Position numbers and translations under genes: made by a program | Assembly: GCA_026985075.1 (NCBI GenBank) | Contig: JALSQX010000067.1 | Location: 1 to 64,000 of the forward strand | DNA length: 64,000 nucleotides | DNA from: Blastocatellia bacterium | GTDB taxonomy: Bacteria; Acidobacteriota; Blastocatellia; HR10; J050 | Direction of reading: 5' to 3' | In this document: piece after piece, positions 46,263 through 51,543 of the stretch | Layout: the number at the start of each line of letters is the position of its first letter | Numbering within the stretch: position 1 is the stretch's first letter | Notes under the pieces: model-generated | Database searches by the model: none | The model's input: only the letters and a program-made list of their open reading frames with translations | Told to the model about the DNA's origin: nothing

Positions 46263-46624
46263 CCCACCAGCGCCGATCCATCAGGTCAATTGACATCGCG
46301 GGTCATTTTCAGTTGATTTCATCTCGGCTCGACGCGGGCCACCTGCTCTCGAAGAAAAGACAGCCTTATGTCCCTCGAGCAGACGCTCACACCAGCCATC
46401 CGATCCGTCGCCGATCCGCTCTCTTCCATGGCCGCAGCTCTGCTCTGAAATGTCCGAAGATGAGGCTTGCAATCCCCGTGCCGGAGTCTCCGGCTGCTTC
46501 TGATCCCAGCCGGGGATTGAAAACACGAGAGTTATTGACCCCGGGGCGGTTGAATGAGCCGGGCATGTGAAAGGCTCGTTTCACCGTCGCAAGCGATATT
46601 TCAATCTGGAAGGGGAGTGGACCG
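46263..46624. other. Gene-free stretch with an isolated CRISPR-repeat-like hairpin
   Basis: No supported gene. At 46486-46524 a 39-base segment contains CCGGCTG and CAGCCGG (7-bp stem, 10-base loop) and ends GGGGATTGAAAAC, resembling a CRISPR repeat; CAATCCCCG at 46470-46478 pairs with its CGGGGATTG. It occurs once, so it is not an array. The segment ends at the ribosome site of the truncated Crp copy. Confidence 0.45.
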
Positions 46625-46897
46625 ATGAGATGGCCGCGGCGAGAGCCGCTTTTAGAGCAGTTTCTCTGGGATGTGCTGGTCAGCCACTCGCCGGGCGCAT
46701 CGGGCTCGCCTCCACGCCTCCAGTTGCCCATCCCGCAATGGGAACTCGCTCGCTACCTGGGCGTCACTCCCCAATATGTGACGCGATTGCTCGGCCAATT
46801 GGAAGACGAAGGACTCCTCCTTCGACGCAAAGGCTGGCTGATCATCGCCGATCCCCATCGACTCTGGCACCGATCCGACCCATTAGGCAATCGATGA
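46625..46897 (+). pseudogene. Truncated copy of the Crp/Fnr-like regulator (DNA-binding end only)
   Basis: 90 codons whose residues from LLEQFLWDVLV onward match the C-terminal winged helix of the Crp-like protein at 50812-51543 almost exactly (LQLPIPQWELARYLGVTPQY, VTRLLGQLEDEGLLLRRKGW). The cyclic-nucleotide-binding half is missing. An ATG at 46625 after GGGGAG could still allow a free-standing 90-residue DNA-binding protein, possibly a competitor of the full regulator. The DNA copies (46655-46898 and 51289-51531) differ at only a few positions, so the duplication is recent. Confidence 0.8.
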
Positions 46898-46898
46898 C
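46655..46898 (+). repeat. Left copy of ~244-bp direct repeat (partner at 51289-51531)
   Basis: Begins GAGCAGTTTCTCTGGGATGT in both copies (offset 4634) and extends past the stop region to CGATGACC. The pair brackets the low-GC peptide island, so recombination between the copies would delete it in one step. Confidence 0.85.
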
Positions 46899-47070
46899 CG
46901 CTACCCCTCTCCAGTTCCCTTGAGCGGCCAAGTACTGACGTGTTCGTTGACACTATCCATATCGCCAATGACCCACCCCATGCGGTCCTTGCTCACTGTC
47001 GGCATCGGCAGGAATCCTGACAAGCCTCAACGACGCCTATCATCCATTATAACGGGCTTAAACAAGTTGA

Positions 47071-47099
47071 ATGACAAAGTAAAAGATGTGTGATAGAAT
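47071..47099 (+). promoter_or_regulatory. Promoter for the first cysteine-peptide gene
   Basis: ATGACA (47071-47076) and TAGAAT (47094-47099) with 17 bases between, in a locally AT-rich stretch; predicted start near 47106, about 37 bases before the ATG. Confidence 0.5.
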
Positions 47100-47142: not shown

Positions 47143-47361
47143 ATGAGGAGGTCAACATTTTTCTTGATATCCCCTGAATGTATCCTGCTCTTCGTTTTGG
47201 TCATTGGGGTGCTGAGCCTGTTTGCAGGAACCACATGGGCAAATACTCCAACAATTCCACCGAAATGCGAATGCTGGTTGTGGAAATCGAATCAATATGG
47301 TGTAATTCGGAATAATGATTGCGTTGTTACCAATTGCTGGAAACCCCTAATCGCTGAGTGA
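47143..47361 (+). CDS. Exported four-cysteine mini-protein (copy 1)
   Basis: 72 residues: basic start, hydrophobic export signal (CILLFVLVIGVLSLFAGTTWA, cleavable after TTWA), then a mature part of ~35 residues with KCECWLWKSNQYGVIRNNDC and NCWKPL. It shares C-x-C-x(6,7)-YG-x(6,7)-C-x(4)-CWxPL with the genes at 47458 and 50211. The ATG at 47143 follows GGAGGT at 7 bases, a strong start. GC is much lower than in flanking genes (37-47% in sampled lines). No known family is recognised; it may be a disulfide-bonded secreted peptide or a modified peptide precursor. Confidence 0.75.
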   Translation: MRRSTFFLISPECILLFVLVIGVLSLFAGTTWANTPTIPPKCECWLWKSNQYGVIRNNDCVVTNCWKPLIAE

Positions 47362-47457
47362 AAAGACACCGGAGCAACAGCATATAGTCGAACCACTTGG
47401 TCATGCGGATATTCAAAGGGGGGACCGAAAATGCAATACAGGTAAAGCCTGACTTGT

Positions 47458-47685
47458 ATGAAGAGAAGACGATTCTCATTACCGGGATGGTTGCTCATCG
47501 TGATGGCGATTCTTCTTGTCTCGGGCTTGGCTGTTTATCGGCGGGTCATGGTCCACATACCGACAGGGGAAGAGACCCGGTGCAATTGCATGACCGAAGA
47601 AGGCAAGTACGGCATCAGGGATGAACAGGGTAATTGCATTGAACAGGACTGCTGGATTCCGTTGGACTGGGCTCCACAGAACTAG
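47458..47685 (+). CDS. Membrane/exported four-cysteine mini-protein (copy 2)
   Basis: 75 residues: MKRRRFSLPG, hydrophobic segment WLLIVMAILLVSGLAVY, then RCNCMTEEGKYGIRDEQGNC and DCWIPLDWAPQN. Cysteine spacing and the YG and CWxPL landmarks match copies 1 and 3, although the residues between differ, as expected for old paralogues with a conserved fold. The signal has no clear cleavage site, so it may stay membrane-tethered. The ribosome site is weak. It lies 96 bases after copy 1 and 18 before the helical-repeat gene. Confidence 0.72.
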   Translation: MKRRRFSLPGWLLIVMAILLVSGLAVYRRVMVHIPTGEETRCNCMTEEGKYGIRDEQGNCIEQDCWIPLDWAPQN

Positions 47686-47703
47686 ATTCCGGGAGACGAA
47701 TCA

Positions 47704-49554
47704 ATGAATGCGCTCATCGTTATTCGTCTCATCTTATTGCTAGTGCCTATGGTCACCATGCCCTCACCGGTATCTCAACAGGAAGAGGAGGCCTCGACTG
47801 TCTCCCCTCAACGGCAACTTGCTCTAGTCATGCTGACCAATCTTGCTGAGGAGGTTCGATCTATTGATGGGGTTGAGCAACGCGTGAGACTCCTTGCGAG
47901 TATTGCTGATCTCATCTGGCCCTATCAACCGGAGGCAGCGAGAGAATATATCCGAGAAGCATTTGAAGAGACAGTGAAGATGCCGGAGATGAGACGGGAT
48001 GAAACGGATGCGCCTCGAAGTCGATCATCATTTCAGCGCGAGCTGGTGAAAGTTGCAGCACGTCACGACGTCCAATTCGCCCATACACTCATCAACCGAT
48101 TCATCGACCGCCCAACGGAGTCCTCATTTCATCAATCGCCCTCTGACTCAGGTTCCCCACATCAGCCCTACTCTCCCTATTCCTTGGCCAGCGCCCTTGT
48201 AGATGTGAGTCCGCAACTCGCTGTAGAAGTGGCTGAACGAGGATTAACAACAGGGATTAACTGGCATACACTCTCCTTTCTGCGTCGTCTTCGACAAAAG
48301 GACGCTGAACAGGCCAGAGCCTTTTTTATCTCCGCAGTCGATGCGGTCTATCGCCGAAGAGGGCGAAACATTAATGAACTATTCATTCTCCATGCCTATC
48401 TGTTCGCTCCGAAAACGTTGATTGAAGTGACCACCAGTGGGCCACGAGTTATAGAGTTACCCGCATACTCATTGCTCCGGAGGGATACCTCTGTCGATCC
48501 GGATCTGGCCAGGTATTTCCTGCAAGCGAGCGCAGATATTCTACTGGCTGAGGATCGGTATGCTTCCCCTTCTCCCGAAGCTGAGATGCTTGGCGACTAT
48601 TATTTCATCACCCTCCTTTTGCCTCAATATCGCATGTATCTCCCCGAACTGATCGACCGTATAGGAGCAACGCGAAGCTTTCTGGAAGCAACCCTCAAAG
48701 CTCGCATGAACACGCGATTACATCGTCTCCCTCAAGAGACTTCACCCAACCAGAAAGACTCCCACCCCGGGACTGGGATGAGTTCGGTTGACGTGCTCGT
48801 CGATAAAGCTGAGCGAACAACGGACCCAGTAGCCCGTGATCGACAATATTTCCGTGCCATCGCGTTCGCAGTGAAAGGACACGAATATGATCGCGCTCGG
48901 GATCTCGTTTCCCGATTATCGGAGAATATACGGACATCCGCCCGTTCATTCGTGAATTTCATGATCGCCTCACAAGCCGTCTCTGACCATGAGTATCACC
49001 TTGCTCTCCACTATGCGCGACACGACCAGGATCCCGCTCGCCGAGCCTATATCCTGATGTCTGTGGCCGCCTCGTTGCCGCCGACCCAACGAGGCTGGGC
49101 ATTCGAGCTTCTGACCAAGGCCGAAATGCTCGCTCGAAAGGTGCGGTCAAAGAAGATTCAAACCTCGCTCCTGTTTGGTCTCGCGAGCATGTATGCCCGC
49201 CTCGATCCAGCCCAGGGGCTAGGGATGCTCAGCAAAGCGATTGAATCAGCCAATAAGACGGAAGAGTTCGATCCTGACAACTTGACAATTAATGCCTCGA
49301 TCATGATCGGCGGATTTGGATTCTTCTATCATGTCGATCATCGTTACTTCGGTTTCGCTCCGGTGTTTCGATCACTGAGCAAAAAACACTTTCACTCCAC
49401 AGTATTGTTGGCCCTACAGCTCAAGGATCGCGTCGCGCGGGCCAAGGCTTTAATCGCCATCCTTCATGAGGTGTTGGCGCCAGCATCGCCGCCAAGCGGG
49501 ATTCCATCACAGAGAACCGAGTCAAACTCCAGAAGGGCATCGGCAGATGGCTGA
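47704..49554 (+). CDS. Exported helical-repeat protein of unknown function
   Basis: 616 residues with an N-terminal signal (ALIVIRLILLLVPMVTMPSPVS). The rest is almost wholly alpha-helical with repeating A-x-x-L and LLxxIADL-type pairs (VRLLASIADLIWPYQPEAAR, ARRAYILMSVAASLPPTQRG, IQTSLLFGLASMYARLDPAQ), suggesting a TPR/HEAT-like solenoid. No catalytic motif was seen. Codon use and GC are lower than in flanking regions. It starts 18 bases after peptide 2 and overlaps the thioredoxin-like gene by 8 bases, so it belongs to the peptide operon; a binding or scaffold role is inferred. Confidence 0.7.
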   Translation: MNALIVIRLILLLVPMVTMPSPVSQQEEEASTVSPQRQLALVMLTNLAEEVRSIDGVEQRVRLLASIADLIWPYQPEAAREYIREAFEETVKMPEMRRDETDAPRSRSSFQRELVKVAARHDVQFAHTLINRFIDRPTESSFHQSPSDSGSPHQPYSPYSLASALVDVSPQLAVEVAERGLTTGINWHTLSFLRRLRQKDAEQARAFFISAVDAVYRRRGRNINELFILHAYLFAPKTLIEVTTSGPRVIELPAYSLLRRDTSVDPDLARYFLQASADILLAEDRYASPSPEAEMLGDYYFITLLLPQYRMYLPELIDRIGATRSFLEATLKARMNTRLHRLPQETSPNQKDSHPGTGMSSVDVLVDKAERTTDPVARDRQYFRAIAFAVKGHEYDRARDLVSRLSENIRTSARSFVNFMIASQAVSDHEYHLALHYARHDQDPARRAYILMSVAASLPPTQRGWAFELLTKAEMLARKVRSKKIQTSLLFGLASMYARLDPAQGLGMLSKAIESANKTEEFDPDNLTINASIMIGGFGFFYHVDHRYFGFAPVFRSLSKKHFHSTVLLALQLKDRVARAKALIAILHEVLAPASPPSGIPSQRTESNSRRASADG

Positions 49555-50182
49555 GCTACCCGAAAAGACCCGTGTGGAGGGGAAAACTCCATCGGCGAGG
49601 CGGTTCACGCATATAAATGGCGTGTTGCTCATCAGCACAGTCCTCGCTATCTCTTTTTGCGTCATCATTGGCTATCAAAATCGAATCTTAGTTCGTCGAC
49701 TATCCACGCTGCGCACGCATTTGGCCGGGTCTGTTAGAGCTTTGCCGGGTGACATCGTTCCTCCATTCACGGCATTGGATTTGCACGGAACGTTCCATTC
49801 TATCAGGTACTCGAACCATGCCCCTTATCGAATTATCTTCTTCTTCGCGCCAAACTGTGAAGTTTGTGAGCAACAAGCATCTTACTGGTGGCCACGAATT
49901 CATCAGGAAATTTGCTCGCGTCATATCGAACTCATCGCCGTCTCGCTCGGTGATGCGATCCGGACGAAAAAATTGATGAATCGAAATCACCTCGACTTCG
50001 ATGTCCTGATCATGCCTGACCGGCCAGTCCGCAGAGCATACAGAGTCACAGATATCCCCGTGATCTTAGTCGTGTCACCGAAAGGACGGATAGAATGGGC
50101 ATATTACGGATTATTGGATGAGCAAAGTTACTCAGAATTAACGCGGGTTGTATCAAGCCATGTGGTACCGGGGATTCGATAA
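49547..50182 (+). CDS. Membrane-anchored thioredoxin-like protein
   Basis: 211 residues: cytosolic start, one membrane helix (VLLISTVLAISFCVIIGY), then a TlpA/MauD-like thioredoxin fold. IIFFFAPNCEVCEQQASYWW holds the Cys-x-x-Cys (CEVC), and VRRAYRVTDIPVILVVSPKGRI provides the cis-proline loop. The fold faces the periplasm, so it could form, break or isomerise disulfides in the neighbouring cysteine peptides; this is inferred from the context. The ATG at 49547 lies inside the end of the previous gene. Peptide 3 follows 28 bases later. Confidence 0.82.
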   Translation: MAELPEKTRVEGKTPSARRFTHINGVLLISTVLAISFCVIIGYQNRILVRRLSTLRTHLAGSVRALPGDIVPPFTALDLHGTFHSIRYSNHAPYRIIFFFAPNCEVCEQQASYWWPRIHQEICSRHIELIAVSLGDAIRTKKLMNRNHLDFDVLIMPDRPVRRAYRVTDIPVILVVSPKGRIEWAYYGLLDEQSYSELTRVVSSHVVPGIR

Positions 50183-50210
50183 GCCACTTAACTATGGGAG
50201 GAATTAGATC

Positions 50211-50435
50211 ATGAAGCATTTGCGCTGGATTCTATCAGTGACTGTGCTACTTAGTGTGCTTACTATCGGAATGGCGACGGTTTATCAAGCTCGAGTGCAG
50301 GCGGATAGTCCCGTAAAGAGCATACCAAAATGCGAATGTTGGTATCCCAATACAAACGAGTACGGGATTATCATTTGGCCCATTGGGTGTGACGTGAGAA
50401 ATTGCTGGATCCCCCTGCCCAGTACGCAAAATTGA
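50211..50435 (+). CDS. Exported four-cysteine mini-protein (copy 3)
   Basis: 74 residues: MKHLRWIL, hydrophobic signal (SVTVLLSVLTIGMATVYQARVQA), then KCECWYPNTNEYGIIIWPIG and CDVRNCWIPLPSTQN. KCECW and NCWxPL are nearly identical to copy 1, and CWIPL to copy 2. Strong ribosome site GGGAGGAATTAG before the ATG. It directly follows the thioredoxin-like gene, the strongest sign that redox protein and peptides work together. Confidence 0.77.
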   Translation: MKHLRWILSVTVLLSVLTIGMATVYQARVQADSPVKSIPKCECWYPNTNEYGIIIWPIGCDVRNCWIPLPSTQN

Positions 50436-50547
50436 ACTCATCAAGCTCCTGAGCGACGGCGATATAAATGGGACCACCTTGGAAGAATCTGTTGTGGCTG
50501 ATATCTTCACTTTACTTAAAGAAGAGGCTGGCTTGACAGTTCTTTAA
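50407..50547 (+). pseudogene. Possible 3' remnant of an unidentified gene
   Basis: One frame is open from 50407 to a TAA at 50547 and reads like real protein at its end: IELIKLLSDGDINGTTLEES then VVADIFTLLKEEAGLTVL. It overlaps the end of peptide 3 in another frame and has no good start codon. It looks like the surviving C-terminus of a gene broken when the island was assembled. Confidence 0.4.
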
Positions 50548-50562
50548 AGGGAGACGTAGACT
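50533..50562 (+). promoter_or_regulatory. Promoter for the Crp-like gene
   Basis: TTGACA (50533-50538) and TAGACT (50557-50562) with an 18-base spacer. It sits in the end of the gene remnant and predicts a start near 50569 and a ~240-base leader. Confidence 0.55.
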
Positions 50563-50811
50563 TCCGGTGAGGAAGAGAGCGGATGACTGAAGCGTGGTGC
50601 GCCACCCTCTGGCGATAGAAGCGCAGAGGGGAAGAGGTTCGTTCATGGGAGTGATGCCCTCCGAAACGGGTTGAGGGAGGCGGCCCGTCATGCTCTGGGA
50701 AGGAAAGCATGAGAAGGGCCATGTTTCGGCAGGAGGAGAACCATTGCTGCTCCGGAGACGTTTGGTCAGCATGAGCTTGCTGGCCACTCGATGCATGAGA
50801 AGGAGTAACCG
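50561..50811 (+). ncRNA. Hairpin-rich leader (candidate cis-regulatory RNA) before the Crp-like gene
   Basis: Several consecutive inverted repeats: CTTCC/GGAAG (50561-50575), GTGG/CCAC (50594-50605), CCCTCT-G-GCG with CGC-AGAGGG (50605-50630), and a three-tier nested stem CCGAAAC (50661-50667)/GTTTCGG (50723-50729) enclosing GGCCC (50682)/GGGCC (50716) enclosing TCATGCT (50688)/AGCATGA (50706). No open frame is convincing. It could be a riboswitch-like leader, a small RNA, or a piece of a group II intron (GTGCGCC at 50597 resembles an intron 5' end). Confidence 0.4.
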
Positions 50812-51543
50812 ATGAACACACCACCACTGACCCGAGCCGTGGGAGAAAGCACCTCGGGTCAACGTTCTATGCTATCTAGAGCGACGGCCGGGTGGGAGGA
50901 ACTCCAACATGCCGGCTCTACCCACGTTCGTCCAGCAAGAACGATTCTCTTCCACCAAGGCATGCCCGTGTGGAATGTCTACCTCATCGAGCGCGGTCTG
51001 GTTAAATTGGAGCGATCCGAAGAGGAAGGGCGACCGGTCATCGTGGGCTTGCGTCGGCCAGGATGGCTTCTGGGAGCGGCCGCCGTCTTGTTGGAACGTC
51101 CCCATGCCACCACCGCCACAACCCTCACCACCTGCCACTGTCATCTCATTCCCGCCGAGGCCTTCCGGCATCTGGTGGAGACCCGTCCACCTGTCTCCTG
51201 GCTGATTCACCATATCCACAGCCGCGAGATCTATGAGCACCTTGTGCGGGTGACTGAACTCGCCGGGATGACAGCTCGACGACGATTGGAGCAGTTTCTC
51301 TGGGATGTGCTGGTCAACCACTCGCCGGGCGCATCGGGCTCGCCTCCACGCCTCCAGTTGCCCATCCCACAATGGGAACTCGCTCGCTACCTGGGCGTCA
51401 CTCCCCAATATGTGACGCGATTGCTCGGCCAATTGGAAGACGAAGGACTCCTCCTTCGACGCAAAGGCTGGCTGATCATCGCTGATCCCCATCGACTCTG
51501 GCACCGATCCGACCCATGGGAAATCGATGACCTGTCGGAGTGA
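50812..51543 (+). CDS. Crp/Fnr-family transcription regulator
   Basis: 243 residues. The N-terminal cyclic-nucleotide-binding-like beta-roll (ILFHQGMPVWNVYLIERGLVKLERSEEEGRPVIVGLRRPG) is followed by a dimer helix and a winged helix (LQLPIPQWELARYLGVTPQYVTRLLGQLEDEGLLLRRKGWLII). No Fe-S cysteine cluster like Fnr is seen (one CHC only), and the phosphate-cassette residues of true CRP are not obvious, so the ligand is unknown. The ATG follows GAAGGAG. Its 3' end is duplicated at 46655. It is the probable regulator of the peptide island. Confidence 0.88.
   Translation: MNTPPLTRAVGESTSGQRSMLSRATAGWEELQHAGSTHVRPARTILFHQGMPVWNVYLIERGLVKLERSEEEGRPVIVGLRRPGWLLGAAAVLLERPHATTATTLTTCHCHLIPAEAFRHLVETRPPVSWLIHHIHSREIYEHLVRVTELAGMTARRRLEQFLWDVLVNHSPGASGSPPRLQLPIPQWELARYLGVTPQYVTRLLGQLEDEGLLLRRKGWLIIADPHRLWHRSDPWEIDDLSE
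51289..51531 (+). repeat. Right copy of ~244-bp direct repeat (partner at 46655-46898)
   Basis: Lies within the winged-helix coding end of the Crp-like gene. Differences from the left copy include AACCAC for AGCCAC, one C/A change and one C/T change, plus a one-base length change after CGATCCGACCCAT. Confidence 0.85.

Follow-up and report, generated by a model that had tools for sequence, protein, structure and literature searches.

We have analyzed a stretch of 64,000 nucleotides (the window; contig JALSQX010000067.1 of assembly GCA_026985075.1, positions 1 to 64,000 of the forward strand) from a Blastocatellia bacterium of the Acidobacteriota, and within it a tight plus-strand run of genes that combines three small exported proteins with four cysteines (peptides 1 to 3), a thioredoxin-like protein (RED) and a large helical protein (HEL). 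Peptide 1 (47143–47361), preceded by a ribosome-binding site, is a mini-protein of 72 amino acids with the pattern CECW..YG..C-x4-CWKPL and a cleavable-type signal (TWA/N). Peptide 2 (47458–47685, 75 amino acids, CNC..YG..C..CWIPL) starts with a hydrophobic segment in which no clear signal-peptidase site can be recognized, and to judge from its sequence it may stay anchored in the membrane. Only 18 bases further on lies the HEL gene (47704–49554), coding for an exported alpha-helical, solenoid-like protein of 616 residues that has no cysteine at all and has homologues in the class. Its stop is overlapped by the start of the RED gene (49547–50182, ATG at 49547), a membrane-anchored ResA/MauD-like redoxin with the motif CEVC, and after another 28 bases comes peptide 3 (50211–50435, 74 amino acids, CECW..YG..C..CWIPL, cleavable-type signal VQA/D). 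The C-x-C, YG, C, CW and PL are invariant among the mature peptides, which have little else in common.

The original prediction, made from the nucleotide sequence, had described this run of three motif-bearing peptides of 72–75 residues, the 616-residue protein and the anchored CEVC redoxin, together with a local drop in guanine plus cytosine (GC) content. The open reading frames (ORFs) and their translations agree with that description, and the GC of the block is indeed 49–54% vs. 57–63% in the surroundings. The claim that the cysteine pattern belongs to no described family was borne out as well, peptides 1 to 3 matching no known domain in Pfam or NCBIfam. The AlphaFold model of peptide 1 (three sequences) predicts a signal helix followed by a small three-strand sheet, with a mean predicted local distance difference test score (pLDDT) of 77–89 over blocks 41–70, and a fold search with this model gave no match in the PDB. 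HEL had no significant match in Pfam or NCBIfam, including the Pfam repeat families of the TPR/HEAT type; modelled by itself it gives a structure of low to moderate quality that is nearly all-helical (mean pLDDT 60), with only weak Foldseek matches to solenoids. Elsewhere in the window, outside the cluster, there are no exported ORFs with at least four cysteines, and we found a single one over 171 kb of control loci, so that the presence of three in the cluster is not due to chance.

Close relatives in the class

We searched 162 genomes of the class with a profile of three rows, built from the mature peptides. Good homologues appeared in five genomes besides that of the window, three of them belonging to one genus of the same order (G016, G017 and G019) and the others being G157 and G150. 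In 5/5 of these genomes a redoxin related to that of the window comes after the peptides, and in 3/5 HEL is present as well. In G016, G017 and G019 HEL lies between peptide and redoxin, the same arrangement as in the window; three peptides are present in G157 and two in G150, both genomes being without HEL. In G019 a crp gene (43% identical to that of the window, see below) is found upstream of the peptide, whose gene is frameshifted. Searching with the redoxin added two genomes with variant peptides: G161 (IKCNC..., with HEL and RED) and G112 (CRECDC..., then RED and HEL). In a maximum-likelihood tree the eight redoxins (window, the five homologue genomes, G161 and G112) form one clade with support 100/98. 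The co-occurrence of the peptides with both large partners, put forward originally as a check, thus holds in full for the redoxin, present at every genuine homologue locus (L052–L056 and the variants L060 and L109), and only in part for HEL, found at L052, L053, L054, L060 and L109.

Other candidates were discarded. A weak peptide match in G151 runs antisense inside a radical-SAM-like gene and one in G057 has neither redoxin nor signal, both being attributed to chance; near a phylum-level match in G408 (E 0.005) there is no RED. Scans of genome contigs with single HEL and RED sequences gave no relatives, which is a limit of the method, as the other genome searches gave many, and the search for plasmid relatives of RED had no match. 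Genes of the HEL family are common throughout the class, and the window's own genome carries four more (L008–L011), all without redoxin or peptide; when these were used as markers of further cassettes, none had a mini-protein. The frameshift in the gene for the four-cysteine peptide beside HEL and RED at L054 (9380–9760, minus strand) may reflect recent loss or a sequencing error. Exported cysteine-rich proteins of other types, with no family match, are located near the cassettes at L052 (4101–4391), L053 (4011–4541) and L054 (5854–6702). The last one has a C-terminal tail, CGACLGC...CFLLCCGGGIAGC, that by eye looks like those of the halocin-C8 type.

Redoxins and mini-proteins across the phylum

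The RED of the window matches PF00578 (AhpC-TSA) with 40.8 bits (cut-off 26) and its sequence has the traits expected of a ResA/TlpA-like protein, i.e., a thioredoxin domain, an N-terminal membrane anchor, a CxxC and a cis-proline. Across 19 REDs the two cysteines of the CxxC and the proline at position 175 are invariant. Although RED shares fold and topology with ResA, StoA and TlpA, the REDs form a branch of their own (support 99/97) relative to 19 TlpA-like proteins encoded in the same genomes. The best relatives of the RED profile in the PDB are ResA (E 7e-22) and StoA. The MauD profile (TIGR02661) is matched weakly by 13/19 REDs, that of the window with 19.2 bits vs. an equivalog cut-off of 188.6. 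MauE (PF07291, 2.5e-23) directly follows RED at a single locus, L117.

To call mini-proteins we looked for short ORFs whose basic start is followed by a hydrophobic core and then by four cysteines or more. Over 530 kb of loci nearly all the calls adjoin a redoxin of the RED kind, with many, unrelated cysteine patterns. An exported mini-protein was found within 1.5 kb of RED in 16/24 phylum loci, which had been picked on redoxin score alone and had no part in building the profile, and in 13/27 class loci, a set that includes the seven used for the first profile. In the same genomes, the controls gave a mini-protein at 0/30 AhpC-TSA loci and 1/20 TlpA-like loci (16/24 vs. 1/50, Fisher p 1.6e-9). 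Over longer stretches, 33 of 42 RED ORFs had a mini-protein within 3.5 kb, 25 of them within 300 bp, and the nearest one was on the strand of RED in 32/33. The similarities among peptides and among their REDs are correlated (Mantel r 0.26, p 0.0005), with some partner swaps, as at L208 and L210, where similar redoxins stand beside dissimilar peptides. A mere chance neighbourhood of frequent small cysteine ORFs and a housekeeping TlpA could point to the HEL paralogues and the many TlpA genes without peptides in the same genome. It is refuted by the control counts (a single ORF of this type over 171 kb vs. 16/24 RED loci) and opposed by the homologous operons in several families, and we regard it as extremely improbable. 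The window cluster is probably one instance of a phylum-wide cassette made up of one or more mini-proteins and a dedicated anchored oxidoreductase, often with HEL.

The cysteines located after the hydrophobic core are even in number (4, 6, 8 or 10) in 38/39 RED-linked peptides, the p value for this parity being optimistic since the 39 peptides are not independent. Such counts are predicted by full disulfide pairing and not by metal ligands or chance. Together with the adjacency on the same strand across the phylum and the co-variation of peptide and redoxin, they support the suggestion, already contained in the original prediction, that the redoxin serves disulfide maturation of the peptides. 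Two other roles for the cysteines have to be considered here. The mini-proteins might be metal-binding peptides (for copper or zinc, for example) kept reduced by a ResA/TlpA-like reductase, as the C-x-C motif can bind metals and the RED profile is nearest to ResA and StoA. However, besides the even counts, none of the three window peptides has a histidine in its mature part, and no obvious transporter or regulator for metals was seen at the loci read, which makes this role quite improbable. Alternatively, they could be small electron carriers or redox sensors exchanging electrons with RED, the disulfides being their working parts. A CxxC redoxin is always adjacent, redox activity is conceivable for the C-x-C and C-x4-C pairs, and the window family allows only two disulfides. 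Against this, the cores are hypervariable across the RED loci, containing as many as 10 cysteines without a shared CxxC core, unlike a carrier, which must dock to conserved partners, and we consider the carrier role unlikely.

Proposed role of RED and its partners

We think it reasonably likely that RED is a thiol-disulfide enzyme dedicated to exported disulfide mini-proteins of hypervariable sequence, often accompanied by HEL. The mini-proteins would leave the cytoplasm by means of their N-terminal signal, peptides 1 and 3 being cut free and peptide 2 remaining anchored. On the periplasmic side RED would form, reduce or reshuffle the bonds between their cysteines until the right pairs are reached, and the cysteine-free HEL, encoded in the same operon, might serve as scaffold, receptor or chaperone in holding or delivering the peptide. 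The genes and their linkage, the even numbers of cysteines, the co-variation of peptide and RED and the presence or absence of the cassette are observed, while we infer the action of RED on the peptides, the direction of thiol exchange, the role of HEL and the final use of the mini-proteins; given the hypervariable cores, competition or signalling would be the most likely end use.

Several points weigh against this assignment, in addition to the non-independence of the peptides. The HEL family adjoins RED in 13/51 loci vs. 0/50 controls, which speaks in favour, but the HEL profile behind this contrast was partly built from RED loci. Most RED loci are without HEL, and HEL paralogues stand elsewhere in the genome without peptides. 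About one fifth of the RED loci have no detected mini-protein; at L110, L111, L113 and L212 RED has other partners and at L215 and L222 none. Finally, ResA and StoA are known as reductases, serving cytochrome c and spore-cortex proteins, and being the nearest solved relatives they suggest that RED may reduce or isomerize, or serve another substrate. As a separate observation, the redoxins of L110, L111, L113 and L212 make up a sub-branch that is paired with a conserved duo of exported proteins of about 190 residues (WLCSGSTAYHYSPRS... and AQWKDVYRTxGGLVAGADLIVIA...).

A narrower form of the same idea, compatible with it, is that the mini-proteins are antagonistic peptides of the bacteriocin or defensin kind, with RED as maturase and HEL, a beta-propeller or an ADOP permease acting in immunity or export. 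The leader motif S-x-x-Q-L, which counts for the broader reading as well, appears in 12/39 peptides with differing cores (0.43 expected by shuffling), and a conserved leader with a hypervariable core, several peptides per locus and presence or absence at the genus level would all fit. One of the 39 RED-linked peptides, and none of the three in the window, has a weak defensin-like match in Pfam (AtDEF-like, 7e-4). Duplicated ADOP permeases (TIGR03434) adjoin the peptide-RED pair at L055 (8877–10838), L056 (361–2850) and L207 (2472–4913), and further ones at L211 (2555–4936), L214 (2570–5011) and L224 (3289–5610). However, ADOP genes are abundant in this phylum, so that the adjacency may be background, and the permease could be either a background neighbour or a functional partner. 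No bacteriocin family was matched either, and neither a dedicated protease nor an ABC exporter was seen. We hold this antagonistic role to be possible, if somewhat doubtful. Apart from this, the mini-protein at L210 (2374–2595), CICPQIYAPVECDKGKVYPNQC, resembles by eye a Kazal-type protease inhibitor, with no Pfam match.

For a dedicated maturation enzyme, the maturation of methylamine dehydrogenase (MauD/MauE and MauA) serves by analogy as the working precedent. There too an anchored thioredoxin-like protein is encoded beside a small exported protein with multiple disulfides. The differences are that no methylamine dehydrogenase genes were recognized at the loci read (the neighbours in the window being peptides, HEL and crp), that MauE is usually absent and that the peptides here have 60–120 amino acids and are of many types. 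In Bacteroidota, small exported cysteine proteins of the NVEALA type are found in clusters with TlpA and 6-bladed beta-propellers. Similarly, at L218 and L225 a beta-propeller beside peptide and RED takes the place of HEL (6-bladed, PF17170, for L218), but there was no match to the NVEALA family and most loci have HEL or nothing instead of a propeller. Our literature searches gave nothing relevant on NVEALA, on cysteine-rich peptides with TlpA or on knottins with thioredoxin, and no report, in the library searched, of the cassette in this phylum. The nearest published idea is that of the Streptomyces candidate families of ribosomally synthesized and post-translationally modified peptides (RiPPs) from decRiPPter, in which mauE or mauD lie beside precursors with at least eight cysteines; they were proposed from genomes and not characterized, three families being defined by mauE and mauD occurring in one only (PMC7794033). 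The likeness is one of gene logic, a Mau-type redox gene beside a cysteine-rich precursor, in another phylum and with no helical partner in the text consulted (PMC7794033). The window cassette fits this RiPP-type arrangement, its small cysteine-rich precursors sharing an operon with a redox gene of the mau type.

Whether all this amounts to a new phylum-wide class seems to us evenly balanced. Its members would be secreted mini-proteins of hypervariable sequence with all cysteines paired in disulfides, inherited together with a membrane-anchored redoxin foldase particular to each and, in some branches, with a helical solenoid or a beta-propeller as partner. This would parallel in bacteria the eukaryotic pattern in which a conserved leader and a variable knotted core go together with a dedicated disulfide enzyme. 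If so, a poorly cultivated soil phylum would hold numerous secreted disulfide mini-proteins that have escaped annotation, with the redoxin clade as the one marker needed to find them. They would be a source of natural knotted scaffolds with a set of dedicated foldases, and it could be tested directly whether a single oxidoreductase can become specialized for a single peptide fold. A function would also be offered for families of unknown role at these loci, such as HEL and possibly the ADOP permeases.

Flanking crp gene and direct repeat

A Crp/Fnr-like regulator gene (50812–51543, plus strand) follows peptide 3 and by Pfam and NCBIfam profiles is an ordinary member of its family (cNMP_binding and HTH_Crp_2). 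The original prediction had named it as part of the system. It does not belong to the short-spaced run: it starts 376 bases past peptide 3 and its GC (0.60) is like that of the flanks, making it a loosely linked neighbour outside the tight run. As a member of the system it is the weakest part of that proposal, since beyond the window a crp gene was found upstream of the same cassette at one locus only (L054) and no Crp-type palindromes were found near the operon. Upstream of peptide 1 there is a candidate promoter-like site (47071–47099, plus strand; 10/12 with TG extension) from a consensus scan.

The cassette is bracketed by a direct repeat of 248 bp, 97% identical, formed by the 3' end of crp (51285–51532) and a truncated 3' copy of the gene on the same strand (46652–46899), located just ahead of the run and not noticed in the original prediction. 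The congener G021 (contig C345) has a single truncated crp copy (L233, 94–394) between the counterparts of the left and right flanks of the window. Window positions 46609–46883 correspond to L233 94–369 and 51289–59512 to L233 141–8347 (87% identical); as the G021 contig starts there, the left flank is matched only for some 45 bases past the repeat. Between the direct repeats, a unit of 4.6 kb made up of the cassette and the complete crp is thus present in one congener and missing from the other, the site in G021 being empty or excised. The low GC of the genes (0.44–0.53) favours gain rather than loss of the unit, though the flank comparison fits either.
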